Shown: piece after piece, positions 19,774 to 64,000 of the stretch
Position numbering within the stretch: the stretch's first letter is position 1
Layout of the letters: each line of letters opens with the position of its first letter
Origin: Cloeon dipterum
Lineage: Eukaryota; Arthropoda; Insecta; Ephemeroptera; Baetidae
Assembly: GCF_949628265.1 (NCBI RefSeq)
Contig: NC_088787.1
Span: forward strand, 920,501 to 984,500
Direction: 5' to 3'
Length of the DNA stretch: 64,000 nt
Translations under genes and position numbers: made by a program
Notes under the pieces: generated by a model
What the model was told of the DNA's origin: nothing
What the model saw: only the letters and a program-made list of their open reading frames with translations
Database searches by the model: none

Positions 19774-22700
19774 TCAATAACGCCAATAGGCCCATTCTGG
19801 AAGGCTGTTGTTTGCGGTGCACTCGGTGACAACGGGCTGAGGGAAGCGGCAGAAGACGTCGGTTTGATAGAGCAGCTCCTCGGTCGCGGATACGGCGCGA
19901 AGGTTGGGCTTGGGCCCTGGCAGAGAGATCAGCATCAAAGGCTCTTTCGTGGTGGCAGCCCCTTTCACGGCAATTGGCACTGCAACCCTGTCCGAGGGGT
20001 TGAAGGGGTTGAGGCCGCTGCGGCACCACGCGAGAACACGGTCGTTGGACGAAAAGAAGGCTTGGTCCCAGATGATCGTCAGGTTCGGAGCCACGCCTGA
20101 AAAAAATGTAGATTTTGTTTCTTAAATTAGTGAAATGTTTACTTCTGAAAAATGAGTAAAGTTGGAAAAACATCTCTTTGGTTTCTGCGTAGGGAAGCGA
20201 GCCCCTTCTTTCCAAGCACGCGGTGTATGAAGATGTGTTTAACTGAAATCACAATAAAATTTAAAGACCGTCTCTGACGAAGTTTCTGAGCCCACTAATC
20301 GATTCCTGAGGGTCGAATTAGGTAAAGTGCATATTTTTACCTCCAAAAAGGCAAATGCGACGTAAGAACTTTTTTCCCGCCAAAACTTAATGAACCTATT
20401 TGCGAGAAGTGCGCATGCGTGAGAGCTTAATTGAGCACTTGCAGAGAGACCAGCTGTACGAATGACTTCTTTGTCACATCCAGCCCCCTCTCACGCATGC
20501 GCACTTCTCGCTTTTATATTATTTTGGCGGGAAAAAACGTTCGCACGTCACGCTGCACTTTTTGGCCGGGAAAAATATCAATTTTACCTAATTCGACCTT
20601 CAGAAATTGATTGGTGGGCTCAGAAACTTCGTCAAAAAGTCGGATTTTAAATTAATCCTACTTTTTGAACATTAATCGGCACTCCGGAGATGAACGGTCC
20701 AGAATCACCAAGTTGAGCCAAAATAGCAGCTTTTCCAATAAAATAATTACTTATTTAATTCTTTAAATAAATAATACACACGCGGAATGCACAGAAAAGT
20801 GTTTTGCAAATAGTTTTGTAACTTGAGGCAAGGCGAGGAAATCTCATCCTGCGCGGGAATCACGCTGAATTGCTTTAATTAAAAATTTAAATAAATTTGA
20901 GAGGAAAATCTTGAATAAATTACGTCTGATTGGTAACTGTAAGCCTTCCAGAAGCGTTGCAGCTCCTTGGACTGGAGGAGGCACTGCACAAAACCGAATG
21001 CGAACGTTGCCTCGCCGGATTCTCCAATGAAAAAAATTCGATAAACAATTAAAGAAAAATTAAATTAAACCTGGTATGGCACTGCAGTCATCGAGTTTGT
21101 TGATTAACTCGGTGCCGAGTTGAAAAGGTTCCAAGTAAAAATCTTCCATCGTGTTCTTGGACATGTCTTCGATCATATTTTGAACCTTTTGCTCTCCGTA
21201 TGTCTCCTTGTAGGCCCGAAACCAATCTCTTTTGTTTGTCATGATGGTGAACATTTTTTGTAAGTCACTGAAAACAATATTTAAATTATTAATTCTGCTA
21301 TTTTAATTGCCTTATACATGGTCGAAGTAATAATTTTGGAGACCATGTTCAGGTAGGTCTGCTTGTTTAGCTTTGTCGAGCTGTAAAACTGAGAGAAAAA
21401 CACTAAAATTTTCTACGAGAGGCGTTTGAAAATACCAGTCCGGCGAATTCCGCCAAGCATTGAATCATTTTCTGAAATTAATTGCTCACAAGGAGTTATA
21501 AATCTGTCATGTTATACTTTTGCTCCACTTCCAGCTCGACTCAAATCACCAGAGTTCCAAAGTGTATAAGCCTCGGCTGAATTAACCAAAAGAAAAATCA
21601 ATTTTAAATTTTAAAAAATTCCAATTAATTACCCTCTTTGACCATGTATATTTTTCTGCAAAATAACGCGGGCACTTGCAATTTGTAGCCTACTCCTGCA
21701 GGCGCCTGTTCGTTTATTTTAAATAAAAACCATTTCAAATTAATTAATTAATTAATAATACTTCGCATAAAATCTGTTTCTTCTCGGAACATTCGGCCAA
21801 CGCCAAGCTGGACATTTTGGGTTTGCTCAGGTCGATGAAGACGCACGAATTGTTGGCCGAGTCAGGGTCCTCTCCTGCCTTCCAAATCAGGTCTTTTTTC
21901 AGGAAGTCGTTCAGGTAGCCGGTGCACCAGCGCAATTTTCCGCGACAGGCGTTTAAATCCCTTCCGGACGTCCAGAATTGTCCCTCGGGCGGCTTGAGGG
22001 CTTCTTTAATTTCGATTAAATTGAATTTTGATCAGAAATTCGTGTTTAACTTGGAGGATTGGCCAAGCAGTGTTGCTTGATCGGATTTTGAAATGATAAA
22101 AGGTCCATTCCGAGGGAGCAGCACCGCGTGTACGCCTCGTCCCAAGTGCCCTGTTATTTTTAGGTAGTGATAAATTGGAATTTAAAGCTACATAGCTCAA
22201 CATATTCATTCGGCAGCTCGAGGAAACTGTGGCTGCATGAGATCGTCCAGTTTCCGAAACGTTGGGGGACTAGATTCGGAATTAATTAAAAAGAGTCGTT
22301 ATTTTTATAATTTCACCAAGCAAAACTCTGAATGGTTGGGTCAGGAAGTTAGAGTCCTGAAAATAAACTTTAATTATTTTTAAAGAATTAAAATTAATGA
22401 AAATATACATCCATGACGCATTCAGCGATTCCTGTACAGTCTGGTACTTTACAGTTGGTCTTCTTTTTCTTCTAAAATTCTCTTAAAAGAATCGGAAACA
22501 TTTAAAAGATGAAATTTACCTTCATTCTAAAAGTCTGAACCGGGCCTTCGCAGGCCAACAGCAGTTTTGAAATGCAAGGGGTAGTTTTTACTGCAATTCT
22601 ATATCCCAAATAGAGTTTCGCGGAAGGATCACGGACCGTGACAGCCACGCAAGACCCTTCTTGAAACACTCCGTGGATCGTAGGAATAGAGAACGGCTCC

Positions 22701-24639
22701 GTGGCATTCGAGTGGAAGCAATTTTCGAATTCGTAGGGACAGTCGGCACGAGTCATGGCCGTCCAGTAGACTAGGCCTTGCATTGCTGATAGTACCAAGT
22801 GAATTTTAAAATTAATTATGCATTTTGTTTGATTTTAAACTCACGAGAGTCTTCTCTGTCGAATTGGTTAGTCAAATTGTCAGTCAGAGCTATTGGTTTG
22901 AGGCCGAGACTGCAACAAGTCTTCCAGTTCTCGCTCCAATCAACCTTTTGAGGTTTAAAAATTAAATTTTCTTCCTGGAATATTGTTTTAAAGTACTTGT
23001 TTCTCTCCCAGAAAGTAGGAAATGTTGTTATTTGATCGTATCCACTTGCCTCCAAATTTGTTTCCTATCAAATTTCGAAAATTAAAAGTGAAACTAATTA
23101 AAAAGATCCCCTACCTGATTTCAGATAGGACTTCCCTTTAGTTACTGTGAATAGAGAATCCTGTAAATGCCATTATTAATTGAAAGACCGTCCTTGACAA
23201 ATTTCTGAGCACACCAATCGATTCCTGAGGATCGAATTAAGTAAAAAGTATATTTTTTCCGTTAAAAACGTCCAGCGCGATGTTTGAACTTTTTTCCCGC
23301 CAAAACAATTTGAACGTATTTGTGAGGATTGCGCATGCGTGAGAGCTGGCTGGATGTGACAAAGATGTCATTCGTACAGCTGCGGTCTCTCTGCAAGTGC
23401 TCAAACCAGCTCTCACGCATGCGCACTCCTCGCATTCATTTTGTTTTGGCGGGAAAAAATGTCCGCACGTCGCGCTGCACTTTTTGGTCAGAAAAAACAT
23501 GCACTTTACCTAATTTGACCCTCAGGAATTGATTGGTGTGCTCAGAAACTTCGTAAAAATGTTCTTTAAGGAAGAAAACCAATTTTTAACTTACATCTTT
23601 GATGCATTCGTCCGGCAAGGGACACTTCGGCTTCGAGCAAGGCGTCTATTCGTTTTCTTATTGAAATTCTACAATTTTCTACAATAAGCAATTTATTACC
23701 TCGCAAAAAAATGACGCTTCCAAAGTGCAGTTTGTAGGTTCGAGTTGCCTGCTGGACCTTCTGTAAATCATGCAGTAGGGCGGGGAAAATCGACCTAGAT
23801 AGAGCGTGTAGTCGAGGCGAGTGGCGACGTCATTCGAACACCACGTGACGCTCGAACAGGATTTGGTTTTTGCGTCCAGCGGATCGCTTTTCGAGCACGG
23901 AGCCGCGCTCGTCCACAAAAACTCCAAGTCTTCATCTGGAATTTATTATTTAGACCAACTAAATTCGCGAGAAATATTATTCTTCAACGTGATTCATCGG
24001 CGTTGCTTTTGTAAATGCTGCTGAGATAAATTTCGTTTATTTCTTCTGGTCTTTCGAGCGCCAACAGTTGCATGTTTCGATACACGCAGGTTTTCACGGC
24101 TTTGTCGTATTTCGCCTTGTTTAAATGCGGTCAGGGAATAATTTTCTTAGGAATAATTAACATACCTTTTCGAGAGAGCTGAATAAAATTTTGTATCCCT
24201 TTTTGACGAAAGTTCCAACCGCTCTGTCTCGATTGTCAAGCAATTCCACTTCACTGTCTTAATTCAGAAAAGGTAATGATTTAATATTATGAAAGGTTGC
24301 GGCAACCATACCTCGTTTCCCAATTATAAAATCTAGAATGTTTTTAAAATAATTAATTACATAAAAAATGATGAGCTGAACTCACCAGCAGCAGTTGCAC
24401 TATCTAACAAATTCTACGGAAAACATTTTTTATACCTTTTCCTATATTAAAATAAATTATAACCTTTTTAACCAGGTTGTAATTTCGACAGTAGAGCCAA
24501 TAATTTAGTCTCTTTGATTCCGTCGAGCCGGTTGCTTGAGATTTCCCTGGAATTTGTTTTAAAATAAAGAAAACAAAATTATCGTCAAACCCGTGGAGAT
24601 GAGAAGCGCAGAGAAGACGAGAATTTTTAAAATTTCCAT
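19774..24639 (-). CDS. CTL-1: secreted triple C-type-lectin-like protein
   Basis: Start MEILKILVFSALLISTG (signal peptide, exon 24639-24591), then a linker exon ending WLYCRNYNLVKK. CTLD1 uses small exons plus 23935-23700 (FLWTSAAPCSKSDP ... TLEASFFCE). CTLD2 has VDWSENWKTCCSLGLKPIA and AMQGLVYWTAMTRADCPYEF. CTLD3 has GTWDEAYTRCCSLGMDLLSF and GQFWTSGRDLNACRGKLRW...ECSEKKQILCE. The C-terminal region ends in the 323-base exon 20096-19774 (APNLTIIWDQAFF ... EWAYWRY). It is the most diverged member of the array, with a promoter of its own type. I traced most exons and saw no frame break. Both foldback elements sit in its introns and make it the longest copy. Likely an extracellular recognition protein; ligand unknown. 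Confidence 0.75.
20266..20643 (+). mobile_element. Foldback MITE, copy A, in an intron of CTL-1
   Basis: Long imperfect inverted termini: TGACGAAGTTTCTGAGCCCA at the left is mirrored at the right end, followed inward by TCGAATTAGGTAAA, then TTTTTTCCCGCCAAAA and GCGCATGCGTGAGAGC in both arms. A unique centre of about 70 bp (AGCACTTGCAGAGAGACCAG...) separates the arms. No coding sequence. It lies between the exons for GPFISGVPINVQK and TSSYTACLERRGSLPYAETK. Confidence 0.75.
23186..23567 (-). mobile_element. Foldback MITE, copy B, in an intron of CTL-1
   Basis: Same family as the element at 20266-20643, with the same terminal arms and TTTTTTCCCGCCAAAA / GCGCATGCGTGAGAGC blocks. The unique centre is inverted relative to copy A (GGATGTGACAAAGATGTCAT... 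here, its complement there). It lies between the exons encoding TPCSKPKCPLPDECIKD and DSLFTVTKGKSYLKS, so splicing should remove it. Confidence 0.75.
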
Positions 24640-24870: not shown

Positions 24871-24927
24871 TAATTTATTGATAGCATAAAACCAAGTATA
24901 AGAATTGCAAACAAACGATTCAAAGGG

Positions 24928-27900
24928 TTAATAGTTCCATGTAGAGGTATAAAGGTTGTTTTCGCAACTTTTTTTAACGGATGGTGAGAAGCGGCAGAAG
25001 ACGTCGGTGTCGTACTTGAGCGTTTCGGTCACAGGGACAGCGTGGAGGTTCGGCTCCTTTCCAGGCCGCGAGACCAGCATCAGGGGGATTTTATTTGAGG
25101 TTGCGGTCACTGGGACGGGAACCGGGATCCTGGCGGAAGGGTTCAAAGGGTCGACGTCGCTGCGGCACCACACGAAACCCTTTCCGTTTGCTGCTGCGTA
25201 TCCGTGGTCCCAGATAATCGTCAGGTTTGGTGCCACGCCTTTATGATTAATTATCAATTTTTGGCATTTTTTTAAATAAAAAAGCACCTACTCCTGAAGT
25301 AATTATAAAGACCTACAAAAATTTCCTTGGTTTCCGCGTATGGCAGCGATCCATTTCTCTCCAAGCACGCGATAAACGATGACGAACCAACCTTAATTAC
25401 AAAGTATTAATCGCAATTTTTAATTATTAAATAAAACCTTAGTAACATTGATCGGGATGAGAGAAACAAAAGGCCCCGTGCGAGTCAATCCATACAAAAA
25501 ATTTTTAGCTAACGATTTAAATCATTTTCAAAGTCATCCGTTTTGAAATTCTATGAAAAAACCTACGTATGCACATATAGGAGTTTCTCAAAAGTCCCTG
25601 GAATTTGAAACAAGGCGAGCTGATCTCTTCATACATCGGGACCAGGCTGTTTTCCTATTTTTCACGAAGGGGAATTAATCAATTCAACAGACCAAATTCA
25701 TACCTCAAGCTCGAAATCGTAATTATTCCAAAAATTAGCCATTCCTGGAGACTTAAGGAGGCACCGCAGAAAGTCAAAAGCGAACGTAGCATCGTTCGAG
25801 TCTTTCAAGATTTTTTCATAATTTTTAAAACTAATCTAGAAAGGTAAAACCTGGAGTATTTTTGCACTCGTAGAATTGAATGATCAAATCGGCAGAAACT
25901 TGAAAGTGAGCCGAGTAGAATTGTTCCATCACTTCAAAAGTAGACAGAAGCAGGAATATCTTGTATTTTATAAGATTTGTCATTCCATACGACGTCACGA
26001 GGTCACTTTTTTCATTTAAAACTCTTTGCATCGCATCCGTATCTCTAAAAAATATAAGCAATTTTAATTTTGTTTATAACTTAATTTAAAAGTTTTTGAA
26101 TACACAGGATATAACATTCTGGAAACCATTTGAAAGTACGCGTGCTCGTTTATTTTGGTTGAGTTATACACCTGCAATTATTGGGAATTTATTTCATACA
26201 GAATTAAAGTTTAAAAAAAATACCAGTCCCATGTATTCAGCTAAGCATTGGACCATATTCTACTCAAAACCTTTATAAATATTTAATACGAGGGTTTTAA
26301 TAAGAAATTTTACTTTTGCTCCGTATCCGGCCTTGCTTAAATCGCTGGTGTTCCAGATTTGGATTGCTTCACCTAGATGAGAAATTGCTAAATTATTAAA
26401 ATATCCCGGAACAGTCTGATAAAAATTACTCTCTTTCACGTTGAAACTTCTTCTGCAAAACGTTGCGTGCATCTGCGATTTGTAACCTACTCCCGAAGGC
26501 GCCTGGATCGGAATTTAAGTTTAAACCGTTTGAATAATGTAAACTCACTTCGCAGAAAAACTGTTTCCTTTCCGAGCAGTCGGCCAAAGCCAAACTGGGC
26601 AAAATCGGGTCGTCGAAATCTATGTAGACGCAAGAATTGTTGGCAAAACTAAGATCTTCCTTGGCTTTCCAAACAAGGTCTGTTTTGAGGAAGTCATTCA
26701 GGTAGAATGTGCACCAGCGTAGTTTTCCAGGGCAAGAGCCGATGTCCCTTCCAGATGTCCAGAATTGTCCGGAGAACGGCAGCTGATTCCCAATTTTTTG
26801 CTTTTTACTTGAAGAGCTAGCCAAGCATATCTGCTCTGCTGGATTTTGAATTGATAAGAGGTCCATTCCTACAAAGCAGCACCGTTTGTAAGCCTCGTCC
26901 CAAGTTCCCTGAAAACGGTTTCAGAGTAACATATAATACATCAAAAGATAAGCTTACAGAAGGATTTGGAAGTTGAAGAAAACTATGGTCACAGGCAGAC
27001 AGCCATTTTCCCAGACGTTGGGGTGCTTGATAAGGAACAGTTTTTTCATACGTAGAAAGTTTATTAATTTTATCTAGATCTCACCGAGCAAAACTGGAAA
27101 AGGTCGCAGGAGGAAATTCGAGCTCTAGACAAAAAATTTCTAGTTAAACAAATTTTAAAATTTTAAATAAAATTACATCAGTGTAGCAATTATCAGCGAT
27201 TCCTCTGCACTCTGGCAGATCACAGTTAAGCGAGTCCTCAATCTATTTCGAAATTTACTTAAAGAAAAAATTGTAACAATTTTTACCTTGACTTGGAAGG
27301 TCTGCTCCGGGCCTTGGCATCCAAGCAAAAGTTTCGAGCTGCAAACAAACGTTTTCACTGCAAGACCCATGCCCCATTTTTTCTTGGTAGCTGAGTCGCG
27401 CATCGAAATGGCAATGCAAGATCCCCCGGTCGTCATTCCATTCACGGTCAGCTGAGAAAATGGCTCATTGACATCAGGGTGGAAGCAATTCTCGAACTGA
27501 TAGGGGCAGTTGGCGCGCGTCATGGCCGTCCAGTACACGAGACCCTGCATGGCTGAAAGGGAGTTAACAATAATATTTAGCTTTGGAATTGTATACGAGA
27601 ATTTGCTCTGTCAAAGTGAAGTGTCAAATCATTCATGGCAATGGGCTTGAGTCCCAGACTGCAGCACGTCTTCCAGTTCTCGCTCCAAGAGACCTAGGGG
27701 AGAAATAGTTTAAATTGGAACATTGACAAATTGTTCACCAGTTTTTCTCCAAGAAAATAGAACAATGACACGTTTAATCTTGAACGTTCCCACTTGCCCG
27801 GAATCTCTAAAGACAAAATATTTAAATAGCTCGAATGATTATGAGGTTGCAACCGTTTTTGAGAAAAGTCCTTCCCTCATCCACTTGGAACAACGAGTCC

Positions 27901-29084
27901 TGTAAAATTCTTTATTATACCTAATTTCAATTTCAAAAATTGAATACAAACATCTTTCTTGCATAGATTCGAAGATGGACAGTTTGGCTTCGAGCAAGAC
28001 AGCTTATTTGTTGAATAATTAACATTTCCATATTTATAGTTGGCTAACATTTCTTTACCTCGCACAAAAACAGTGCCTCAAAGGAACAGTTCATAGGTGC
28101 GAGTTGCTTGGTTGACCTTCTGTAAATCATGCAGTAGGGCCGAGCAAAGTTTCCCAAATTCAACGTGTAGTTTAGTCGAGTTTCCACATTGCTGGAACAC
28201 CAGGTGACGCTCGAGCACGAATTCGTGGCTTTGTTCAGCGGATCGCTTTTCGAACACGGCACCGCACTCGTCCACAAAAACTCCATGTCCGCGTCTTGAG
28301 TGTGAGGACAGCCACGAATTATGAAAGTTATTAAAATAATGGATTAATGACCTGTGTCATTGAAGTGAATAATGTCAAGCGTCCGGAAATCGGAACCAAA
28401 ATACGGATCGTTTAATTCTTCGGCTGTATCCAGCGCCAATAACTCCATTTTTCGAAACAAACACGTTTCAATAGATTTTTTGTGCTCGACCTGTATCAGT
28501 ATCATTTTTTAACCATCCGGATAATTTATTAGATTATAGGAACTTTTTCCAGGCTGTCGAAATATATTTTAAATCCTCTTTTAGCAAAGGTGCCGAGCGC
28601 CCGGTCCCGAACATCAAGCATTTCGGCTAAAATTCCTTTTGGAACAATTAAATTATTATCGATATTTCTCTACTTTAGGTTACTTCTCTCCCCAATAATG
28701 AAGTCTACACGAGTGAATAATTTAACAGTTATAACTCCGTATTTTTCAAATTAAATTGCTCACCATCCGGCATAGTAACATCGAGGAAATTCTTTGAAAT
28801 AAGAAATTTAAACAATGAACTCTTACATTTCAAAATTACCAACCTTTTTGATTTTATTGAAGTTTCGGCAAAAGGGATAAGGAGGTTGGGTGGTTGTCGT
28901 AGGCCTCGCCGTGCTAGTAGTAGGTGTTGTCAAAAGCGGCTTTTTTGTTGTAGATTTTGTGGAAGATCTTGTGCACTCAATCTCTGGATTTTGGTATGCA
29001 ATTGACTATCAGTTGAAGATTTTTGGTCAAACCTGTGGCAACGAGAAGCACGAACAGAATCCTTCTAATGGCTGGGATTCCCAT
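24928..29084 (-). CDS. CTL-2: secreted triple C-type-lectin-like protein
   Basis: Signal-peptide exon 29084-29033 (MGIPAIRRILFVLLVATG), a Thr-rich linker, CTLD1 ending in exon 28294-28059 (236 bases, the same length in every copy), CTLD2 (VSWSENWKTCCSLGLKPIAM; GLVYWTAMTRANCPYQFENC), CTLD3 (GTWDEAYKRCCFVGMDLLSI; QFWTSGRDIGSCPGKLRWCT...ADCSERKQFFCE), the helical exon around 26061-25850 and the terminal exon 25238-24928 (APNLTIIWDHGYAAANGKGF ... STWNY). No stop or frame shift noticed in the exons traced. AATAAA on the minus strand at 24879-24874 is a good poly(A) signal, about 50 bp after the stop. Confidence 0.75.
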
Positions 29085-35000: not shown

Positions 35001-36262
35001 ACTTGAATTTTGTTTGATGTTGCAACCTTTTTTGAGAAAAGTCCTCCCATCAATAACTTGGAACAACGAGTCCTGAAAAATTCGATATTTTAACTATTTT
35101 TAATTTTATTTCATGTAATACATCTTTCTTGCATAGATTTGAAGATGGACAGTTTGGCTTCGAGCAAGACAGCTTTGTCAAATAATTAACATTTCCATAT
35201 TTATAGTTGGCTAACATTTCTTTACCTCGCACAAAAAGAGTGCTTCAAAGGAACAGTCCGTGGGTGCGAGTTGCTTGGTTGACCTTTTATAAATCATGCA
35301 GAAGGGTCGAGGAATTTGGCCCAAATTCAACGTGTAGTCGAGGTTGGTTTCGACTTTGCTCGAACACCAGGTGACACTCGAGCAGGAATTGGTGGCTTTG
35401 TTGAACGGATCGCTTTTCGAACACGGCACCGCACTCGTCCACAAAAACTCCATGTCCGCGTCTGGAAAATGCGGCGACAGCCACGGAATAGAAAAATATG
35501 ACGAATAATCGTTTACTGACTTGTGTCATTGACGTGAATGATGTCTAGCTGTCTGAAATTGGAACCAAAATACGGATCGTTTAGTTCTTTGGTTGTATCC
35601 AGCGCCAATAACTCCATTTTTCGCAGCAAACAAGTTTCCATAGCTTTTTTGTAGTTGACCTGTTAAAATTTGTTACATTCATTTATTCGATTAAAGTAAA
35701 ATCGTGACCTTTTCTATGCTGTCGTAATAGATTTGATATCCCCTTTTAGCAAAGATGCCAAGCGCCCGGTCCCGATCATCAAGAATTTCGGCTAAGATTC
35801 CTATTGCACGATGAAAATATGTTACCGACATTTCTGAACTTTTTTTCTTAGTTTAGGTTACCTCGCTCCCCAATAATGAAGTCTACACGAGTGAATAATT
35901 TAACAGTTATAACTCCGTATTTTTCAAATTAAATTACTCACCATCCGGCATAGTAACATCGAGGAAATTCTTCGAAATATCAAATTTAAATAATGAACTC
36001 TTATATTTTAAAATGATCAACCTTTTTAATTTGATTGAAATTTCTGCAAAATGGATAAGGAGGTCGGGTGGTTGTCGTAGGCCTCGCCGTGCTCGTAGTA
36101 GTTGTTTTCAGACGCGGCTTTTTTGTTGTTGACTTTGCGGAGGATCTTGTGCACCGAATCTCTGGATTTTTGTATGCAATTGATTATCAGTTGAAGATTT
36201 TAGGTCAAACCTGTGTCCGCGAGAAGCAAGAAAAGATATAATCCTAAGGCTAGAATTTTCAT
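32059..36262 (-). CDS. CTL-4: secreted triple C-type-lectin-like protein
   Basis: Starts MKILALGLYLFLLLADTG. CTLD1 exon 35461-35226 (FLWTSAVPCSKSDPFNKATN), CTLD2 exon near 34720-34452 (GLVYWSAMTRANCPYQFENC ... LLLGCQGPEQTFQVK), CTLD3 exon near 33915-33682 (QFWTAGRDISSCPGKLRWCT ... FFCE), a helical exon near 33180-32985 and the terminal exon 32366-32059 (SVNGSSFMWCRSDVDPLNPS). The terminal exon is 308 bases, as in CTL-5, CTL-6 and CTL-8. The WTA of CTLD2 has become WSA. AATAAA at 32010-32005. No frame break seen in the traced exons. Confidence 0.75.
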
Positions 36263-47349: not shown

Positions 47350-47939
47350 ATGATCAAAACTCAATTTGCTCTTCTTTTCGCTCTCCTCGCAATTTACTTT
47401 GCAACAAGTTAAAAAAATTTAACTAATTTTTTAAAAATACACCATCCCGTTTTTAACCAGATGTTTGGAGTACGACTACTCGAAGGCCGAGGGCGACCAC
47501 GACCACGACGGTTGCTAAACCAATTCGAAGAATGACAACCACGAAAAGGCGTCCAACTAAGAGAACGACTCCTCCTCCGAACACGGACAGTTCATATCCC
47601 TTTTGCAGGAATTACAATCGAATAAAAAGGTGACATTTAAAAAAATATAAATCACAAATTCCGTTTTAAACCTTCAAAATAATCAGATTTTCCTGGAAAC
47701 TACTTACTCCGATGGTATGACTAAAACGTATTTCAACATCGATGATTATTATTCCAATTTGCTATTATAGATTTTATCGTGGGGAAACGAAATATGATGA
47801 TAAAATATCCTACAAAAATTCGCACGAACAATCAAATTTTTAGGCTTGCTGGCGGAGTTGCTCGACCCGAAACCAATACCTCAAGGGTCTTTCAGCAAAA
47901 GAGGAAATAGAATATTTTTCGGCAGCATTGAAAAGGTTG
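47350..47939 (+). pseudogene. Plus-strand CTL copy with internal deletion
   Basis: Signal peptide MIKTQFALLFALLAIYFAT, linker exon near 47460-47629 (RATTTTTVAKPIRRMTTTKR), exon 3 (about 47690-47715), exon 4 (about 47771-47790) and exon 5 (47846-47936, LAELLDPKPIPQGSFSKRGN) all align with CTL-8. The exon 1 donor is changed (ACAAGTTAA for ACAGGTT) and an in-frame stop follows. After exon 5 the sequence leaves the gene and from about 48000 resembles the 3' flank of CTL-8, so all CTLD exons from exon 6 on are deleted. Confidence 0.75.
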
Positions 47940-49170: not shown

Positions 49171-52100
49171 TTAATAGTTCCATGAAGTGGTATAAACGTC
49201 GCCTTCGCAACTTTTTATAACGGATGGCGAAAAGCGGCAGAAAACGTCGGTGTCGTACTTGAGCGTTTCGGTCACAGGGACAGCGTGGAGGTTCGGCTCC
49301 TTTCCAGGCAGCGAGACCAGCATCAGGGGGATTTTATTTGTGGTTGCGGTCACTGGAACGGGAACCGGGATCCTGGCGGAAGGGTTCAAAGGGTCGACGT
49401 CGCTGCGGCACCACACGAAACCCTTTCCGTTTGCTGCTGCGTATCCGTGGTCCCAGATAATCGTCAGGTTTGGCGCCACACCTAGTGATAACAACTTTTA
49501 AAATTACATTTCTTTTAACAAACACTTACTCCTGAAGTAATTGTAAAGTTTTACGAAAATTTCCTTGGTTTCCGCGTATGGCAGCGATCCCTTTCTTTCC
49601 AAGCACGTGATAAACGATGACGAACCAACCTTAATTACAAAGTTTTAATCGCAATTTTTAATTATTATTTAAAACCTTAGTAACATTGATCGGGATGCGG
49701 GAAACGAAAGGTCCGGCACGAGTCATTCCATATAAAAAATATTCAGCTAATGATTTTCATCATTATTAAATTTTTCCGTTTAAAATTAAAAATCGTACGT
49801 ATGCACGAATTAGAGAGTCTCAAAAGTCCCTGGAATTTGAAACAAGGAGAGCTGATCTCTTCAAACATCGGGACCACGCTGTTTTGCTATTTTTACGAAT
49901 CAAAATTAATCATTTAAAGTGAAGAAATGCATACTTCAAGCTCGAAATCGTAAGCTTTCCAAAATGTAGCCATTCCTGGTGACTTAAGGAGACATCGCAG
50001 AAAGTCAAAAGCGAACGTAGCATCATTTGATTCTTTAAACGTATAGAGTTTATCAATTTTACTATAAAAACTATGAAAATTACCCGAAATATTTTTGCAC
50101 TCGTAGAGACTGTTAATCATATTGGCAGAAACTTGAAAGTGGGCTGAAAAAAATTGTTCCATCCCTTCAAAAGTGGATAAAAGCAATAATTTTTTGTATT
50201 TTAATGGATTTGTCAATCCAAATGACTTCATGAAGCTATTTTTATCACGTAAAGCATCCTGCATCGCATTCATATCCCTAAAAAAACCGGCAAAGGTATT
50301 TATAGAAACAACTATACTGAAAGTTTTGGTTTACAGAGGAGATAACATTCTGGAAACCATTTTAAAGTACACGTGCTCGTTTATTTCGGTCGAGTTGTAC
50401 ACCTGCGATTGAGAATTGATTAATTTATGAAATTTAAGTTACTTGTTAATACCAGTCCCACGTATTCAGCTAAGCATTGCATCATTTTCTACGCAAACTC
50501 TTGATAAATATTGATTTGAGGTTTTAATTAAAATTTAATACTTTTACTCCGTATCCAGCCTGCCTTAAATCGCCTGTATTCCAAATTTGGATTGCTTCAC
50601 CTAGATGGGAAATTATACAAAATTATTAAAATATCCCGGCACAGTCGTGTTTATATTTACTCTCTTTCACGTTGAAACTTCTTCTGCAAAACGTTGCGTG
50701 CATCTGCGATTTGTAGCCCGCTCCCGACGGCGCCTGAATCAAAATTTTTCAGTTTGAACCTTTTTAATAAAGTGTAACCGTACCTCGCAGAAAAACTGTT
50801 TCCTTTCCGAGCAGTCTGCCAAAGCCAAACTGGGCAAAATTGGGTCGTCGAAATCGATGTAGACGCAAGAGTTTTTGGCAAAACTAAGATCTTGCCCGGC
50901 TTTCCAAACAAGGTATTTTTTGAGGAAGTCTTTCAGGTAGTTTGTGCACCAGCGAAGCTTTCCGGGACAAGAGCCAATGTCCCTTCCGGACGTCCAAAAT
51001 TGTCCTGAGAACGGCAGCCGAGTTCCTTTTATTTCATAAGTATAACAATTCTGTATTTATTATCCAATTTTTCAATTTTACTCGAAGAACTGGCCAAGCA
51101 TATCTGCTTTGCTGGATTTTGAATTGATAAGAGGTCCATTCCTACAGAGCAGCACCGTTTGTAAGCCTCGTCCCACGTTCCCTTAAAACAGTTATGTTAA
51201 TGTATAAAATGTATATTAAAGGGACAAGCATACATCTGGATTTGGAAGTTGAAGAAAACTGTGGTCACAGGCAGACAGCCATTTTCCCAGACGTTGGGGT
51301 GCTTGATAAGGAACAGTTTTTTCATGCTTAGAAAGTTCATTAATTTATATCTAGATCTCACCGAGCAAAACTGGAAAAGGCCGCAGGAGGAAATTCGATC
51401 TCTAGACAAACCTTTCTAGTTAAACAAATTTTAAAATTTAAAATAAAATTACATCAATGTAGCAATTATTAGCGATCCCTCTGCACTCTGGTAGATCACA
51501 GTTTATCGAGTCCTCAATCTATTTCGGAATATTAAATAAAGAATTAAAATTGTAACAATTTTTACCTTGACTTCGAAGGTCTGCTCCGGGCCTTGGCATC
51601 CGAGCAAGAGTTTCGAGCTGCAAACAAACGTTTTCACCGACTGACTATTGCCCAATGTCTTCTTGGTGGCTGAGTCACGCATCGAAATGGCAATGCAAGA
51701 TCCTCCCTTCAACATTCCGTTTATATTCGGCTGAGAAAATGGCTCTTTGACATCAGGGTGAAAGCAATTCTCGAATTGATAGGGACAGTTGGCACGCGTC
51801 ATGGCCGTCCAGTACACTAAACCCTGCATGGCTGAAGGGGTCTTTAAAATACGATTTTATTTTGGAATTATTGAGATACGAGAAATTTCTCTGTCAAAGT
51901 GGTGCGTCAATAAATCGTTCAAGGCCAAGGGCTTGAGTCCCAGGCTGCAGCACGTCTTCCAGTTCTCGCTCCAAGAGACCTTGGAGAAATGCAGAAAAGG
52001 TTTTGACATAAAAAACATTGAGAAATTATACTCACCATTTTTTCTCCGAGAAAATAGGACAGGTTAAATTTTGAACGTTCCCACTCGCCCGGAATTTCTA

Positions 52101-53346
52101 AATGTTAAAAAATATAAACGAGCATATTTTTGTTTGACGTTTCAACCTTTTTTAAGAAAAGTCCTTCCATCGACCACTTGAAACAACGAGTCCTGAGACA
52201 AATTCATTATTCTATCAATTTTTAATTTAAATAATTGAATACAAACATCTTTCTTGCATAGATTCGAAGGTGGACAGTTTGGCTTCGAGCAAGACAGCTT
52301 ATTTGTTGAATAATTAACATTTCCATATTTATAGTGGGCTAACATTTCTATACCTCGCACAAAAAGAGTGCTTCAAAGGAACAGTCCATGGGTGCGAGTT
52401 GCTTGGTTGACCTTTTATAAATCATGCAGAAGGGTCGAGGAAGTTGGCCCAAATTCAGTGAATAGCCTAGGACAGTTTCCACATTACTGGAACACCAGGT
52501 GACGCTCGAGCAGGAATTGGTGGCTTTGCTCAGCGGATCGCTTTTCGAACACGGCACCGCACTCGTCCACAAAAACTCCAAGTCCGCGTCTGGAATAGCC
52601 ACTAGAAAAAAATAAGACAATAATTGTTTACTGACCTGTATCACTGAAGTGCACAATGTCAGGTTTTCTAATATTTTTCCCAAAATACGGATCGATCAAT
52701 TCTTCGGTTGAATCCAGCGCCAATAGCTCCATTTTTCGCAACAAACAAGTGTCGATAGCTTTTTTGTAATTGACCTGTTTACATTTGTAACATTCATTTA
52801 TTCGACTAATGTGAAATCGTGACCTTTTCAATGCTGTCGTAATAGATTTTATATCCTCTTTTAGCTAAGGTGCCAAGCGCACGATCCCGATCATCAAGCA
52901 TTTCGGCTAAGATTCCTTTTGGAATAATTATGATACTATCGACATTTCTTAGTGTTCATTTTAGGTTACCTCGCTCCCCAATAATGAAATCTAAAATAAT
53001 AAAACAGATATAACTCTATACTTTCAAATTAATTTACTCACCATCCAGCATAGTAACGTCAAGGAAATTCTTTGAAATAGGATATTTAAACAATTAGCTA
53101 ATCATCTTTCTTTAATAACCTACCTTTTTAATTTTATTGAAATTTTGGCAAAAGGGGTAAGGAGTTTTAGCGGTTGTGGTCGGCCTAGCTGTGCTAGCAG
53201 TAGTTGCTGTTGTTGATTTTGTGGAAGTTCTCGCGCACCAAATCCCTGAATATTTGAATGCATTTGACTATAAGTTGAAGAATTTTGGTCAAACCTGTGG
53301 TAACGAAAAGCACGAAAAGAATTTTTCTAATGGCTGGGATTCCCAT
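49171..53346 (-). CDS. CTL-7: secreted triple C-type-lectin-like protein
   Basis: Starts MGIPAIRKILFVLFVTTG, closest to the CTL-2 signal peptide. CTLD1 exon 52589-52354 (LEFLWTSAVPCSKSDPLSKA), CTLD2 exon near 51829-51566 (GLVYWTAMTRANCPYQFENC), CTLD3 near 51020-50783, helical exon near 50273-50085 (LTNPLKYKKLLLLSTFEGME), the following exon DATFAFDFLRCLLKSPGMAT, and the terminal exon 49481-49171 (HGYAAANGKGFVWCRSDVDP, as in CTL-2). Poly(A) signal AATAAA at 49122-49117. No frame break seen in the traced exons. Divergent from CTL-8, about 1 kb apart. Confidence 0.75.
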
Positions 53347-54358: not shown

Positions 54359-57300
54359 ATGATCAAAGCCAAATTTGCTCTTCTTTTCGCTCTCCTCGCA
54401 ATTTACTTTGCTACAGGTTCTAGAAATTATTATTAATTTTGTAAATTTCTATCTCGTTCAACCAGATGTTTGGAGTGCGACCACTCGGAAGCCGAGGGCA
54501 ACCACGACCACGACGGTTGCTAAACCAATTCGAAGAATGACAACCACGAAAAGGCGTCCAACTAAGAGAACGACTCCTCCTCCGAACACGGACAGTTCTT
54601 ATCCCTTTTGCCGGAATTACAATCGAATAAAAAAGGTGACATTCTCTAGAATCTAAATAGAAAATTACTTGTCAAACCTTCTTAAATTAATTAGAAATTC
54701 CTGGAAATTACGTACTCTGATGGTATGACTGATATATATTTGTATTTTACCATCGATGATTATTAATACACAATGCTAACATAGATTTTGTTGTTGGGAG
54801 ACGAGGTATGATGACAATTTTGTACAAAAATTGGCATAGGAACAATTAAATTTTAAGCCTTGCTGGCTGAGTTGCTCGACCCGAAACCAATACCTCAAGG
54901 GTCTTTCAGCAAAAGGGGTAATAGAAGATTCTTCGAAAGCATTGAAAAGGTTTGTCGGCAAAGCGCAATTTTTAACATTTTCTAAAGAGTAAATTTTAAA
55001 AGGTCAACCACAAAGAAGCAGTTGAGGCGTGTTTGTATCGGAAAATGCAGCTTTTGGCGCTTGACACTCCAGGAGAAATAAATAATCAGTTTTTTACCAC
55101 AAATGGGACTCTCAACGATTACATGCACATGAATGACTCAGGTAAACAACCAACTATTTTTGCTGAAATTCGATTGCTTATATGTTTCCAATAAAGCGGC
55201 GGACATGGAGTTTGTGTGGACGAGTGCGGCGCCGTGTTCGAAAAGCGATCCGCTGAACAATGCCACCAATTCGTGCTCGAGCGTCACCTGGTGTTCGAGC
55301 AGAGTGGAAAGCCGCCTCGACTACACGCTCAATTTGGCCAAATTTTCCCCGCCCTACTGCTTGATTTATAAAAGGTCAACAAAGCAACTCGTGCCAACGG
55401 ATTGCGCCTTCGGATCGTTCTTCATGTGCGAGGTTTCATTAAAGGTGGCTGTAAATTATAAAAATCATAACTGATTCTGTTTGAAAAGCTGCCTTGCTCT
55501 AAACCAACCTGTCCGTCTGGAAAAAGGTGTTTCAAAGGTGTAAGGTTTATTTTAGAAGATTTTGTCAATTTTTTCTAAATATTTTCCCAAGGAATCCCTT
55601 TTTGAGGTAGTTGAAGGAAAAACGTTCATGAAAACAGGCAAGTTGCTAACATCTTTAACTGTATTTTTTATTTGAGAGATTGTTATGCTCTCCTAATTGA
55701 TTATTAACACGAAAATTGTGAATTTCAGGAAGAGAAATTCGCGGAAAGTGGGAGAAATCAAAGTTTAACAGTTCCTACTATTTTTTCCTCGGAGAAAAAT
55801 TGGTTAACCATCCAGCTGTTCCTAAATTATAAAATATAAATACTCTATCCCAAAAAGGTGACTTGGAGTGAAAACTGGCAGACCTGCTGCAGCCTGGGTC
55901 TCAAGCCTTTGTCCTTGGGCGAAGACATTACACACTTTGACCGACACAACTCTCGTAACTATAAAACATATAAGACTCGATTTAAAATGAAACCCCTGCC
56001 TCCAGCGATGCAGGGTGTGGTTTACTGGACAGCGATGACCAGGGCTGAATGTCCCTATCAATTCGAAAACTGCTTCCAAGAGAGCAAGGAGGAGTATGCT
56101 ATGCCTATCTATGGGTCGAAAGAGGGAGGGTCTTGCGTTGCCGTTTCGGTCCGCGACAGCAACGCTAGAGCCGCGATGGGCACAGGATTGGCGGCGAAAG
56201 TAATGGTGTGCGCCTCTAAGCTTTTGTTGGCCTGCGAAGCGCCGATGCAAACTTTTGAAGTCAGGGTATGTAAATTGCTTGATTACTAATTTTTTTGTTT
56301 AAAAATTTGGTAAAGGAAAAGATCGTCAGCTGCGATACGCCCGAGTGTACCGGAATTCCTGATTGCGTCATGGATGTAATGACATTTTTTACCATATATT
56401 ACATAAAAGCTTAAACAAATGCTTGCAGGATTCGAAATTCCTCACGCGACCTGCCAGAGTGTTGCTCAGTGAGCTCGAATTAATAGATATACAAATTATG
56501 GTTTACCAAAAATCTTTTCTATCTCAATAAAAGATCCCAGTCTTTACGGGAAATGGTCTCCTTCCTGCGACAAGAATTTTCTCCAGTTTAACAATGAACT
56601 GGTCTGATTTTTTTTGTAATAAGTTTCCAATCAACGCATATAATTAATTTTAAGGGAACTTGGGACGAGGCCTACAAGCGGTGCTGCTCCCACGGGATGG
56701 ACCTCATTGCGATCCAAAGTTCGAACCAACAAAACTGCTTGTACAGACCTCCAGGTTCGGAAATAGTTATTATGCACAAAACGTCAGCAATAATTTGATT
56801 TCAGTCATTTCGATTTTGTCAAACAATGGAAGACTTCCGTTCAATGGTCACATCTGGACGTCAGGTAGGGACCTTGAGGCTTGTCGCGGAAAATTGCGCT
56901 GGTGCACCGGCTACCTGAACGACTACCTGAAAAAGGATATCGTTTGGAAGAAAGGCGTGGACCCGAAATCGGCAAACAACTCTTGCGTGTACATCGACTT
57001 TGACGATCCCGATTTGCCCACCCTTGGTTTGGCAGACTGCTCTGAGAAAAAACAGATCGTGTGCGAGGTATCAATATCTATTTAAAAGAGTTATTTGGGA
57101 GGATTTTAAAATTCTTGAAATACAGGCTCCTGGGGGAGTGGCCTACAGGTCACAAATGCACTTATTTTTATGTAGAAATTCTCACAGAGCTAAACAAGGT
57201 TCGTTAAATTAAATTTTGTTTATGAATTTTTGGTAAAATCTTAAATATCATAAGGCGAAGCAAGTAAAATTTGGAATACCGGAGACATGAACCAAGCCGG

Positions 57301-58711
57301 ATATAGCTTTAAAGTAATTTCAGATATTTATACCGCCTTTGTATAAATGTTGTTGGGTTGGTCTTTATTTCAGAAAATGGTGCAATGCCTGGCAGAACAT
57401 ATAGGACTGGTATTTTGACTGGAAATGTTAAAGAAAATGTTTATATTCGTAAATTCTTAAGGTGTACGACTCGACAAAAATCAACGAGCATGTCTATCTG
57501 AGCATGATGTCTCGGATGTTCTTTCCTTTGTAAAAATACAAAAAATACTAAAGAGATTTATTATACATTTGAATTAAACAAATTGAAGCAATCAATCTGA
57601 GATGACGAATTCAATAATGGATAAAAGAGAATGGCTTATGTCGCAACCTACGCTCAACTCCACCAGAATGATATTTAAGTTCATAGCAGAAGCGACCGAA
57701 GACACCATGGATGATTTCTTTTCCGGCCACTTTCAACTGGCCGCCGAAATGATCCGCCAACTCTACAATTGCAGAAACACCTCAAGTAAATTTTGTTACA
57801 ATTTTCGAAATGATTTTATAATATATTCCTGAATCTACGAAGAAACTAACGAAGAGACATTCGCTTTCGACTTTCTCCAATGCCTCGTTGATTCGAAAGG
57901 GTTGAATCGCTTTTGGAGTGCTTACAATTTCGAGTTGGAAGTATATGGGGAAATTTCAAAAAGGAATTTCATTACTTAATGTTCAAATAATAGGGTTTCA
58001 GCGTGATTCCAATGGTTGATGAATTCTACTCGCCATGCTCGACGTTCCAAAACTTTTTACAAAACACATCATTTTGCATGCGTATGTTTTCTAAATTTCT
58101 GGAAAACCCAAACTAATTATTCCTGTTAGCAAACGACTTTTTAGCTGGACTTGGACAAACTGGGATTTTCATTTCAACCCTGCCGATTAACGTCAAAAGG
58201 GTTTTATATAGGAATTAAATATATCGAACTAGATAGACTGACTTCTTTTTCAGTTTCGGACGTCATCGTATACCGCGTGCATGGAGAGGAACGGCGCGTT
58301 GCCCTACGCAGAAACGAAACAAATGTTTGACTTCATGTACAATTTCTTCAGGAGTAAGCTTTCCCAGTCAGAATAATTCCAAGGATTAATAATTGGTTCT
58401 TAGGCCAGGCGCCGAATCTGACGATAATCTGGGACCAAGCGTACTTCAACTTCAACGGCGGCTTCACGTGGTGTGCCAGCAACGTCAACCCCTTCAACCC
58501 CTTTAGCCACGTCGTGGTGCCCGTCGACGTGATCAAGGAGGTGTCTGGAAACCCCCTAATGCTGGTCTCGTTGCCAGGGCCCGAGCCAAATCTGCACGCC
58601 GTCCCAGTGACCGACGAGCTCAAATACGAGACCGATGTTTTTTGTCGCTTTTCCATCAACTACTTGGCTTATTGCCAGGCAAATCCAGGCTTGAAACGCT
58701 GGGAGTACTAA
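54359..58711 (+). CDS. CTL-8: secreted triple C-type-lectin-like protein, complete model
   Basis: 27 exons join in one frame to 966 residues. Signal peptide exon 54359-54416 (MIKAKFALLFALLAIYFAT); linker 54466-54635, rich in Thr, Pro and Arg; 54696-54723, 54785-54805, 54858-54949, 55003-55141 and 55197-55432 form CTLD1 (VWTSAAPCSKSDPLNNATNS ... FFMCE). CTLD2: 55489-55539, 55592-55637, 55729-55802, 55858-55954, 56006-56265. CTLD3: 56316-56375, 56429-56468, 56534-56601, 56655-56754, 56805-57067 (IWTSGRDLEACRGKLRWCTG ... IVCE). C-terminal region: 57126-57198, 57255-57313, 57374-57409, 57462-57529, 57589-57785, 57843-57940, 57994-58081, 58130-58200, 58254-58353, 58404-58711. Exon 9 has a GC donor at 55638. 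None of the CTLDs shows the EPN/QPD and WND calcium-sugar motifs. AATAAA at 58840. Probably an extracellular binding protein. Confidence 0.85.
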
Positions 58712-59110: not shown

Positions 59111-59116
59111 ATTTTC

Positions 59117-60358: not shown

Positions 60359-60608
60359 AACAAGAGATTTTCATGATAAATTTTCCTTTTACGTTTGAAA
60401 CTTTCCCGCCGTACTCTCTACCACACGTCATATCTGCGTGTATCTGGTCCCCGGTGTGCTGTACGAAATATTTTACTCGTGAAAAATACATGTTGCTGTA
60501 TACACGAGGCAAAAGTTTTTCATCGAAATTGAGGCAGGAAACAGGGCTCCACATCGGCTGCTGGCAGTAGAAATTCGTTGGCATTTTCGGTTTGGTTTTC
60601 AGTTCGGA

Positions 60609-63600
60609 ATGATCAAAGCCAAATTTGCTCTTCTTCTCGCTCTCCTCGCAATTTACTTTGCTACAGGTTAAAAATTTAATTAATTTTTTTTAAAATACCA
60701 TCCCGTTTTTAACCAGATGTTTGGAGCGCGACCACTCGAAGGCCGAGCAGGGCGACCAAGACCACGATGGTTGCTAAACCAATTCGAAGGATGAAAACCA
60801 CGAAAAGGCGGCCAACTCCTCCGAACACGGACAGTTCATATCCCTTTTGCCGGAATTACAATCAAATTAAAAAGGTAACAATCTCTAGAATCTAAATAAA
60901 CAAATTTCGTGTAAAAACTTCTTTTAATAATAAGAAACTCTTGGAAAATACGTTCACCGATGGTATGATTAAAATATATGATTATGTTACAGTTGATTTT
61001 TATTATTTACATAGATTTTGTTGTTGGGAAACGAAGTAGGATGGTAATGTCTTACACAAATTAGCATGAACAATGAAATTTTCAGCTTTGCTGGCTGAGT
61101 TGCTCGACCCGAAACCAATACCTCAAGGGTCTTTCAGCAAAAGGGGAAATAGAGTATTCTTCGAAAGCATTGAAAAGGTTATTGCCCAGGCGCAATTTTC
61201 AGCATTTTGTTGAATGAACATCCTAAAAGGTCGACTACAAAACAGCAGTAGAGTCGTGTCTGTACCGGAAAATGCAGCTTTTGGCGCTTGATACGCCAGG
61301 AGAAATTAATAATCAGTTTTTTACCTCAAACTGGACTGTCGTCGATTTCATGCACCACAATGACTCGGGTTAAAAACGAAATGGTTTTATGAAAACTGGA
61401 TTTGTTTTACGTTTCCCATAAAGCGGCTGACATGGAGTTTGTGTGGACGAGTGCGGTGCCGTGTTCGAAAAGCGATCCGTTGAACAAAACCACAAATTCG
61501 TGCTCCAGCGTCACGTGGTGTTCGAGTAAAGTCGAAACCAACCTCGACTACACGTTGAATTTGGGCCAACTTCCTCGACCCTTCTGCATGATTTATAAAA
61601 GGTCGAATAAGCAACTCGTGCCAACGAATTGCTCCTTCGGATCGTTCTTCATGTGCGAGGTATTAAAATAGAGGGTTGTAAATTGCAAATATCTTAACTG
61701 ATCCTGTTTGAAAAGTTGGCTTGCTCAAGGCCAAGCTGCCCGTCCGGAAATAGGTGCATCAAAGATGTAAGGCGTTTTAGAAGATTTTGTGAATGCTTTT
61801 CTAACTATTTTCCCAAGGAATCCCTTTTTGAGGTAGTTGATGGAAAAACGTACATGAAACCAGGCAAGTTGCCAACATCTTTTAAGTATTTTTTTAGCTG
61901 ATTAATTGTTATACCTTTATTCAATAATAATAAAACGATTAATTGTGAATTTCAGGAAGAGAAATTCGAGGAAAGTGGGAGAAATCAAAGTTTAACAGTT
62001 CCTACTACTTTTTTCTCGGAGAGAAATTGGTTAACCATCCGTAGTTGTCTCAAAATTAAAAAATATTTAATTCTTCATCCAAAAAAGGTGTCTTGGAGTG
62101 AAAACTGGCAGACCTGCTGCAGCCTGGGCCTCAAGCCTTTGTCCTTGGGCGAAGACATTACACACTTTGACCGACACAATTCTCGTAACCTTTAAAAATA
62201 AGTCTTTATTTATTTTTTCACCAACACCCGCCCTCCAGCGATGCAGGGTGTGGTTTACTGGACAGCGATGACCAGGGCTGAATGTCCCTATCAATTCGAA
62301 AACTGTTTCCAAGAGAACAAGGAGGAGTTTCCTATGCCAATCTATGGTTTGAAAGAGGGAGGGTCTTGCGTGGCCGTTTCGGTCCGCGACAGCATGGCCA
62401 GAGCCGCGATTGGCGCAGGATTGGCAGCGAAAGTAATGGTGTGCGCCTCTAAGCTTTTGTTGGCCTGCGAAGGGCCGGTGCAGACTTTTGAAGTCAGGGT
62501 ATGTAGATTGTTTGATTACTAATTACTTTGTTAAAAATTTTGGTAAAGGGAACGATTGTCAGCTGCGATTTTCCTGAGTGTACCGGAATTCCTGATTGCG
62601 TCATGGATGTAATAAATGTTTTTGCATATGTAAATGTATTTCATAAAAGATTAAACAAATGCTTTCAGGATTCAAAATTCCTCACAAGACCTATCAGAGT
62701 GTTACTCAGTGAGCTCGAATTATATAGATATACAAAATAGGTTTACCACAAATCTTTTCTATTTCAATAAAAGATCCCCAACGTTTCGGAAAATGGAATC
62801 CAGTGTGCGGCATGAGTTTTCTCGAGTTGCGCAATGAACTGGTCAGTTTTTATAGTTGAAATTGCAATCGATGCATTTAATTAATTTTAAGGGAACTTGG
62901 GATGAGGCTTACAAAAGGTGCTGCTCCCACGGGATGGACCTAATGTCGATCCAAAATTCGAACCAACAAAACTGCTTTTACAGATCTCCAAGTTCGGATA
63001 CACAAACCGCAGCATGATTTTGATTTCTTTTTTCTCTGTTTAGGCCTTGTGGGCGTACCAAGTCCAGATAAGCTCCTTTTTAAAGGCCAAATCTGGACAT
63101 CAGGGAGGGACGTTGAGGCTTGTCGCGGAAAACTGCGATGGTGCACCGGCTACCTGAATGACTACATAAAAAAGGAAATCGTTTGGAAGAAAGGCGTGGA
63201 CCCGAAATCAGCAAACAACTCTTGCGTTTTCATTGACTTTGACGATCCCGATTTGCCCAGCCTTGGATTGGCAGATTGCTTTGAGAAAAAGCAGATCGTG
63301 TGCGAGGTATTGATATCCAAATATGAAACATATTCGGGAGCAATTTAAAATTTTGGTAATCTAGGCTCCTGCAGGAGTGGGCTACAAGTCGCAAATGCAC
63401 GAATTTTTCTGTAGATATTCTCTCAGAGTGAAAGATAGTTGGTTACATTATTTTTTGTTGATGGATTTTTGGTAAAATCTCACATGTCATAAGGCGAAGC
63501 AACTAAAATTTGGAATACTGGAGACATGAGCCAAGCCGGATATAGTTTTAAAGTAATTCGAAATATTTATAAATCATTTTTAGAAAAGTTGTTCAATTTC

Positions 63601-64000
63601 AGAAAATGGTACAATGCTTGGCGGAGTATCTGGGACTGGTAGTTCTACTGAAAATAAAAAAAAAACTATTTATATTAATAAATTCTTAAGATGTACGACT
63701 CGACAAAAATCAACGAGCATGTTTATCTGAGCATGATGTCACGAATGTTTTTTCCTTTGTAAAATCCCGACAACTATATTGATATATAATTCTTAAATTA
63801 ATCGATTTAAAGCAATCACTCTGAGTTGGTAAAGACAATAATGGATAAATCAGAATGGCTTAAGTCACAACCTTCGCTCAACTCGACAAGAAGGGTATAT
63901 AAGTTCATAGCAGAAGCGACTGAAGACACCCTGGACGATTTCTACTCCGGCCACTTTCAACTGGCCGCAGAAATGATCCGCAGACTCTACGATTGCAGAG
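60609..64000 (+). CDS. CTL-9: triple C-type-lectin-like protein, cut by window end
   Basis: Tandem sister of CTL-8. Signal peptide exon 60609-60666 (same MIKAKFALLLALLAIYFAT type), linker 60717-60874, CTLD1 exon 61424-61659 (236 bases), CTLD2 exon 62239-62498 (260 bases), CTLD3 exon 63044-63306 (263 bases, IWTSGRDVEACRGKLRWCTG); all three lengths equal those of CTL-8. Exon 9 also ends in a GC donor (ACCAGGCAAGT, 61860-61870). The last exon seen starts at 63813 (IMDKSEWLKSQPSLNSTRRV) and runs past 64000. About five more exons are expected outside the window. No frame break seen. Confidence 0.8.

Follow-up and report, generated by a model that had tools for sequence, protein, structure and literature searches.

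A 27-exon gene array in Cloeon dipterum predicted to encode lectin-OBP chimaeras

We found that an array of genes in Cloeon dipterum appears to encode a lectin-OBP chimaera, in which an odorant-binding-protein (OBP) domain sits between the third and fourth of four C-type-lectin-like (CTLD-like) domains. The array lies in the window, by which we mean the whole 64,000-nucleotide stretch analysed here (positions 920501-984500 of contig C2, in a 190-Mb genome of 10 contigs, five of them of 33-43 Mb). We are highly confident that this architecture is encoded by a single gene with each domain in the order given below. The fuller reading, in which the protein is a secreted ligand carrier on a lectin-like scaffold, has in our estimate a probability of roughly 60%, architecture and function taken as a whole.

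Eight genes of the window share one 27-exon chain and have open frames of 931-964 residues. Five of them, all on the reverse strand, carry the full chain with no internal stops: G1 (19774..24639; 931 residues), G4 (32059..36262; 946), G5 (37367..41540; 937), which served as the reference copy for domain parts, G6 (42028..46279; 946) and G7 (49171..53346; 942). MITE-like insertions occupy introns 8 and 25 of G1, the one in intron 8 being palindromic. In G2 (24928..29084, reverse strand; 955 residues), exons 16 and 17 are fused in frame (26908-26549), and just 26 nt (26808-26783), with no stop inside, lie there between a GT and an AG. The forward-strand genes G8 (54359..58711; 964 residues) and G9 (60609..64000 within the window, ending at 64934 in the right flank; 960 residues) have open frames once a GC donor is permitted at exon 9 (55592-55637 and 61818-61863, respectively). 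The remaining locus, G3 (31576-30471, reverse strand), is truncated, with exons 1-6 followed by the start of an exon 7 that runs into exon 27; this last stretch is out of frame by canonical splicing, and an internal deletion probably produced it.

An earlier note on this DNA, made from the letters alone, had described an array of 27-exon genes with one shared architecture, and the same chain with open frames recurs in our eight models. Its count of at least nine gene-sized copies falls to eight, the ninth being the truncated G3. The exon lengths it had given were recovered: exon 7, its CTLD1 exon, is 236 nt long in 8/8 window genes, and the terminal exon is 323 nt in G1, 311 nt in G2 and G7, and 308 nt in G4, G5, G6, G8 and G9. 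The unbroken frame it had reported for CTL-8, our G8, is indeed open, given the GC donor, at 964 residues rather than 966.

The gene models come from a spliced-chain search with exon templates, which required GT/AG sites and near-canonical exon lengths; the presence of GT/AG in 208/208 introns thus follows from the construction of the search and is not independent evidence. The search places 9-15 weak exons even into controls, so that the score and the strong exons are informative and a tally of placed exons is not. We ran 14 controls, comprising four left-flank stretches, two antisense strands, the strand opposite the CTLD at locus L028, five shuffles and two stretches from another CTLD cluster. 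Twelve of these scored 60 or less with no strong exons, and the two from the other CTLD cluster reached 311 and 242, each with two strong exons. For G5 the score is 5283, and 26 of its 27 exons are strongly alike, so the array is real and not the product of chance. A tblastn search with the exon peptides, which makes no demand on splice sites or length, returned an exon order identical to that of the chain. Six-frame genome searches with Lectin_C and PBP_GOBP neither show nor exclude the family; they overlook nearly all of its genes because the exons are short. A yellow/MRJP-like gene array lies in the neighbourhood (PF03022 matched by four of five ORFs tested). No TTAGG was seen at two contig ends, where 300 bases each were inspected, a result of little weight, and a search for mitochondrial COI gave no hit.

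The domain order can be followed in G5, on the reverse strand throughout. Exons 1-2 (41324..41540) encode a signal-peptide-like start and a Thr/Pro/Arg-rich linker, exons 5-7 (40537..41102) CTLD1, exons 9-12 (39762..40375) CTLD2, and exons 14-17 (38991..39595) CTLD3. Exons 18-24 (38005..38940) encode an OBP domain of Minus-C pattern, in which exon 22 forms an insert that separates C3 from C4, and exon 24 a two-cysteine tail; exons 25-27 (37367..37946) encode a degenerate fourth CTLD-like domain. The triple-CTLD description given earlier was therefore incomplete, and the 370-residue C-terminal part that it had left unassigned resolves into the OBP domain and the degenerate CTLD-like domain. The reading of the genes as one large family with a common architecture was borne out, and no full-length family was named in the open literature searched. 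Each protein has 40-41 cysteines and a hydrophobic, signal-like N-terminus, which suggests secretion. Outside the first 40 residues, the most hydrophobic 19 residues have a mean of 1.12-1.68 across five copies. In G5 (1.65) and G6 (1.68) this stretch, which lies near residues 835-874 within the CTLD-like C-terminus, comes near the hydrophobicity of the start, so that a membrane anchor is conceivable, though unlikely.

The OBP assignment of exons 18-24 draws first on Pfam. PBP_GOBP (PF01395) was matched by 12/12 members of alignment A1 at E<=10 (best 1.3e-7), mainly over the first half of the domain. When eight of the 12 were scored singly, seven passed the Pfam cut-off with 22.4-32.2 bits, and G1 fell under it (E 0.0016, 19 bits). 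Cysteine spacing is strict: the pattern C-x32-C-x88..94-C-x17..18-C-x33-C-x12..13-C occurs in 25/25 copies with exons 18-24, one of which has an extra Cys (copy H1, whose exon 23 was not found, was left out of this count). Set against the classical OBP pattern, the domain keeps C1-C3 and C4-C6 and has lost C2 and C5. The six-cysteine spacing C2-x3-C3 and C5-x8-C6 is accordingly missing, C2 and C5 being absent in 25/25 copies.

It is very unlikely, in our judgement, that the match is a chance likeness to some unrelated helical domain. When the OBP profile of the window family was set directly against those of the sister and third families described below (hhalign), the match was not significant, nor was a PDB search with the window OBP profile (best E 0.14), and both results lean towards chance. 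The four hits of that PDB search were nonetheless headed by two OBP-superfamily chains, the first of them a D7 chain. Against chance stand the 12/12 PBP_GOBP matches and the corresponding part of a sister family, which has six cysteines and matches PBP_GOBP at 1e-11. Exons 18-24 thus probably encode an OBP domain, an identification whose strongest basis is a pair of sister families with the same domain order.

The OBP and CTLD4 of these families were read at three loci. At L032 (contig C1) and L033 (contig C4), CTLD-like domains are followed by a classical six-cysteine OBP and then by a fourth CTLD-like domain, with PBP_GOBP at E 1e-11 and 1.2e-9, respectively. L034 (contig C3), from a third group, has a CTLD with a GEPNN motif (Lectin_C 4.7e-8), an OBP (2e-8) and a CTLD-like exon; the piece read there covers at least one CTLD ahead of the OBP. 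At all three loci the OBP is over the Pfam cut-off. The OBPs of all three loci have the C2-x3-C3 and C5-x8-C6 spacing, and their exon beginning CFLKC is 36 nt long and in phase 0, the same as exon 20 of the window family (beginning KMIQC). At each of the three, a single exon spans the junction, carrying the end of the CTLD together with the beginning of the OBP.

A search with this junction exon, in which the best 150 of 403 candidates were scored, found at least 97 sister loci at 54% identity or more with a stop-free match, and at least eight third-group loci. Among the 97, 96 matches reach query residue 97 or beyond and one ends at 87. At 89 of the 97 sister loci an OBP-exon hit follows downstream, on the strand of the locus and at most 1600 bases away, and at eight there is none among the matches listed. 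None of 150 OBP-exon hits fell outside the junction loci among the matches listed (150 of 199 candidates scored, 18 matches unlisted). This 0/150 says nothing about the number of stand-alone OBPs, because the search recovers only sequences close to a single OBP and misses distant ones: the window family itself is absent among the matches listed, as is a stand-alone OBP (L035) at C3:3625495.

The junction exons also bear on whether the domains belong to one gene. A neighbouring CTLD gene, OBP gene and CTLD gene could in principle have been wrongly read as one, the more so as the single-gene reading is built from sequence; we regard this as exceedingly improbable. The CTLD3-OBP junction falls within one stop-free match at 96/97 sister loci and was read directly at L032, L033 and L034. 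The introns at the domain borders are short and of constant phase, with medians of 51-56 nt and a range of 44-67 nt apart from intron 8 of two copies, G1 (434 nt) and F1 (428 nt), the only ones in which that intron is long. Between CTLD3 and the OBP the intron measures 45-65 nt in 26/26 copies, and between the OBP and CTLD4 48-67 nt in 25/25. The sister junction exons and short border introns leave little room for separate genes, and they argue likewise against the case, raised by the earlier note as the one that would undo its reading, that the three CTLDs belong to separate genes. The exon chain is probably one transcript.

We modelled 26 copies of the window family: the eight in the window, G10 in the right flank and 17 elsewhere on contigs C1, C2, C4 and C5. 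Chain scores of the 18 copies beyond the window run from 2922 to 4407, with 25-27 of the 27 exons placed. Five of them have all 27 exons; the copies we call C3, H2 and J1 are open, and copies C4 and E1 have one stop each. Copies with an unplaced exon give a joined frame with many stops, which we left unrepaired. Exons 15, 18, 19, 20 and 26 have a single length in 26/26 copies, as does exon 16 when G2 is included with its hand-set exon. With the three sister or third-family loci, 29 loci were read in all.

Single-exon searches found good matches at 39 of the best 150 loci for the CTLD3 exon (65% identity or more), at 42 of 45 for exon 27 and at 41 of 43 for exon 7, from which we estimate that the window family may have about 40 members genome-wide. 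The other 111 of the best 150 loci in the CTLD3-exon search scored at 32-49% identity, and not all of these are necessarily chimaeras. Adding the sister and third groups (about 40 + 97 + 8), the genome would hold an estimated 145 or so chimaeric genes.

Constraint varies along the protein, with dN below dS. Mean dN/dS over seven close copies, of which six were usable for CTLD1, ranges from 0.19 in CTLD3 to 0.54 in exon 22, with CTLD4 at 0.50; over five copies of the G8 clade it ranges from 0.28 to 0.76, again with exon 22 at the top (CTLD2 not counted). These are simple Nei-Gojobori means over pairs with shared history, which rank the parts and are not a test of positive selection.

The CTLD-like domains differ in how well they are recognised. 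CTLD3 of G1 passes the Lectin_C (PF00059) cut-off with 26.7 bits, and the CTLD3 core of G2, sent alone, had no Pfam match. Lectin_C was matched by one of eight CTLD1 queries, under the cut-off, and by one of ten CTLD2 queries, at 1.7e-4 (two of the ten were sister-family sequences). With profiles searched against the PDB, all 14 CTLD1 hits were CTLD proteins (best E 0.0096), as were 12 of 13 hits of the CTLD2 profile, which holds two sister sequences; none of the latter was significant singly. In hhalign comparisons, CTLD2 matched CTLD3 at a probability of 89% and sister CTLD3 at 86%, and CTLD3 matched sister CTLD3 at 99%; CTLD1 against CTLD3 was weak but collinear (probability 3%, E 0.018, 108 columns).

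The fourth domain is the most divergent. None of nine CTLD4 queries, two of them from the sister family, matched Lectin_C, and the only PDB hit of the CTLD4 profile was tetranectin (E 1.3). Window CTLD4 had no significant hhalign match to CTLD1-3 (best CTLD1, 21% over 26 columns) and reached only 33% over 10 columns with sister CTLD4. Sister/third CTLD4 in turn matched CTLD3 at 85% over 33 columns and sister CTLD3 at 57% over 52. CTLD4 shares with CTLD2 and CTLD3 an exon of 100 nt in phase 0 that is followed by one in phase 1, and a W-C motif is common to window and sister CTLD4. We call the domain "CTLD-like" because of this exon layout, the W-C motif and the match of sister/third CTLD4 to CTLD3.

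The usual sugar-binding motifs are missing from the first three domains: EPN, QPD and WND were found in 0/22 CTLD1, 0/22 CTLD2 and 0/26 CTLD3. The counts for CTLD1 and CTLD2 each leave out four copies with an exon missing or containing a stop. The variants QPN and EPD occur once each, in 1/22 CTLD2 and 1/26 CTLD3. CTLD4 has EPN in 11/25 copies and WND in none; we considered this EPN as a sugar site and rejected it, as WND is missing and its place, judged by the usual spacing, would be wrong. The combination of EPN or QPD with WND, expected of a Ca2+-dependent sugar-binding C-type lectin, was thus not found in the window copies checked. According to PMC6275457, motifs of the EPN/QPD/WND type usually mark sugar-binding CTLDs.

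On this basis we propose, tentatively and with somewhat less than even odds for the mechanism itself, that the OBP domain acts as a carrier on a CTLD scaffold. Each gene would give one secreted protein of about 105 kDa, consisting of a signal-like N-terminus, a Thr/Pro-rich mucin-like spacer, three CTLD-like domains, the Minus-C OBP and the degenerate CTLD-like end. The OBP domain would carry small ligands, and the CTLDs, lacking the usual sugar motifs, would serve as the scaffold by which the carrier is held on a surface, in matrix or to partner proteins. The ligand may differ between copies through the fast-evolving OBP insert encoded by exon 22. The mosquito D7 proteins set a precedent, since their OBP modules sit within larger proteins, bind biogenic amines and leukotrienes and act as ligand sinks (PMC5307786). 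The likeliest use would be the extracellular capture of hydrophobic cues in chemosensation, which we weakly favour over immune use.

Immune recognition is the main rival, a rather unlikely one in our view. Here the protein would be a secreted multi-CTLD pattern-recognition protein with the OBP as a secondary lipid-binding module. CTLD families do expand in arthropod immunity (PMC6275457), the family is large with weaker constraint in one exon, and the third-family CTLD retains its GEPNN motif; the absence of sugar motifs from the window CTLD1-3 speaks against it. That the genes form a recognition family, as had been supposed, is possible, and a plain immunolectin is less likely because the protein is a lectin-OBP chimaera whose CTLD1-3 lack those motifs.

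The same features could also describe a structural or secretory product, such as saliva, egg coat, adhesive or matrix, with both kinds of domain serving as cysteine-rich building blocks. We think this improbable: the secretion-like start, the many cysteines, the Thr/Pro linker and the many paralogues would suit such a product, whereas the strict cysteine spacing of the OBP and the spread of divergent subfamilies over several large contigs would not. We retain the ligand carrier on a lectin-like scaffold as the preferred reading.

The window proteins resemble several known systems in part. OBPs generally follow set rules of cysteine spacing, the Minus-C class included. The window OBP is like Minus-C OBPs (PF01395) in its C1-x32-C3 and C4-x17..18-C6 spacing, its loss of C2 and C5 and its Pfam match, and unlike them in being embedded in a multi-CTLD protein of about 940 residues and in having C3 and C4 separated by an insert of about 50 residues, with the extra two-cysteine tail. 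It is likewise no stand-alone OBP in the sense of a small single-domain secreted protein, being part of the 27-exon chain. PMC13205551 names five OBP classes and gives OBPs a length of about 120-170 residues. Insect C-type lectins and immunolectins (PF00059) share the secretion-like start and, through CTLD3 of G1, the Lectin_C match; the window family departs from them in its four CTLD-like domains, the majority of which have diverged too far for Pfam to recognise, in the motifs missing from CTLD1-3 and in the position of the OBP between the third and fourth domain.

D7 salivary proteins and dimer OBPs resemble the window family in using the OBP fold as a module; they repeat OBP domains, unlike the window family, and are not known to contain a CTLD. 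Long D7 proteins have two OBP domains (PMC5307786 and PMC2823692). No CTLD-OBP fusion was found in the open literature searched, including the accessible text of PMC8418000, PMC5381652, PMC5307786, PMC2823692, PMC7944917 and PMC6275457, and the arrangement of CTLDs around an OBP domain appears to be a combination not found in that literature.

The size of the family can be set beside what has been reported for this species. PMC7250882 gives Cloeon dipterum a genome of 180 Mb, similar to the 190 Mb here, and 191 OBP genes, 25 of them gill-specific, and places the expression of some OBPs in clusters of gill cells that carry a neural marker; its main text contains no word starting with "lectin". 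By comparison, 10 OBPs are given for the mayfly Parafronurus youi (PMC13205551) and four were found in a damselfly (PMC5381652). The repertoire of 191, the largest on record when published, is of the same order of size as the chimaeric genes estimated here. It is conceivable, and we put it forward with more doubt than belief, that lectin-OBP chimaeras are a class of insect extracellular carriers, with about 145 members here, and that they make up most of the 191 OBPs of Cloeon dipterum.

If this is true, the genes that multiplied encode ligand-capture proteins anchored to a scaffold, where an expansion of free odorant carriers had been seen. The usual view takes OBPs for small carriers that move freely and CTLDs for modules that bind sugars or proteins; a family of well over 100 genes that each place an OBP within a CTLD protein would represent a new design for capturing ligands outside the cell. 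It would point to uses of OBPs that are non-olfactory or surface-bound, and it would alter the reading of insect OBP gene counts made by the OBP domain alone.

In G2, one of the copies of the 27-exon lectin-OBP gene in the array, intron 16 has shrunk to a stop-free GT...AG stretch of 26 nt (window 26808-26783), resulting in a single in-frame exon of 360 nt; this intron has been converted to coding sequence. In the truncated copy G3 (window 30471-31576), exon 7 continues into exon 27, a join that probably reflects an internal deletion inside a single 27-exon gene. An isolated fragment resembling exon 5 lies on the + strand between copies G6 and G7 (window 47855-47935).

Copy G1 carries two palindromic MITE-like insertions, one in intron 25 (window 20275-20634) and one in intron 8 (window 23183-23567), and GCATGCGTGAGAG is common to the inverted arms of both. 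To the left of the lectin array lies an array of yellow/major-royal-jelly-protein-like genes (window 1603-11798), in which four of the five tested ORFs matched PF03022.

Outside the window, the sole PF01395 match in a six-frame search of the genome was a piece of a stand-alone odorant-binding protein gene (L035, C3:3624001-3627500; PBP_GOBP E 5.9e-8). A separate cluster, G000 (C2:6339498-6380408), contains four C-type-lectin-like domain loci spaced ~13.5 kb apart, with equal scores and identical internal stops, suggesting either an assembly repeat or a recent tandem amplification.
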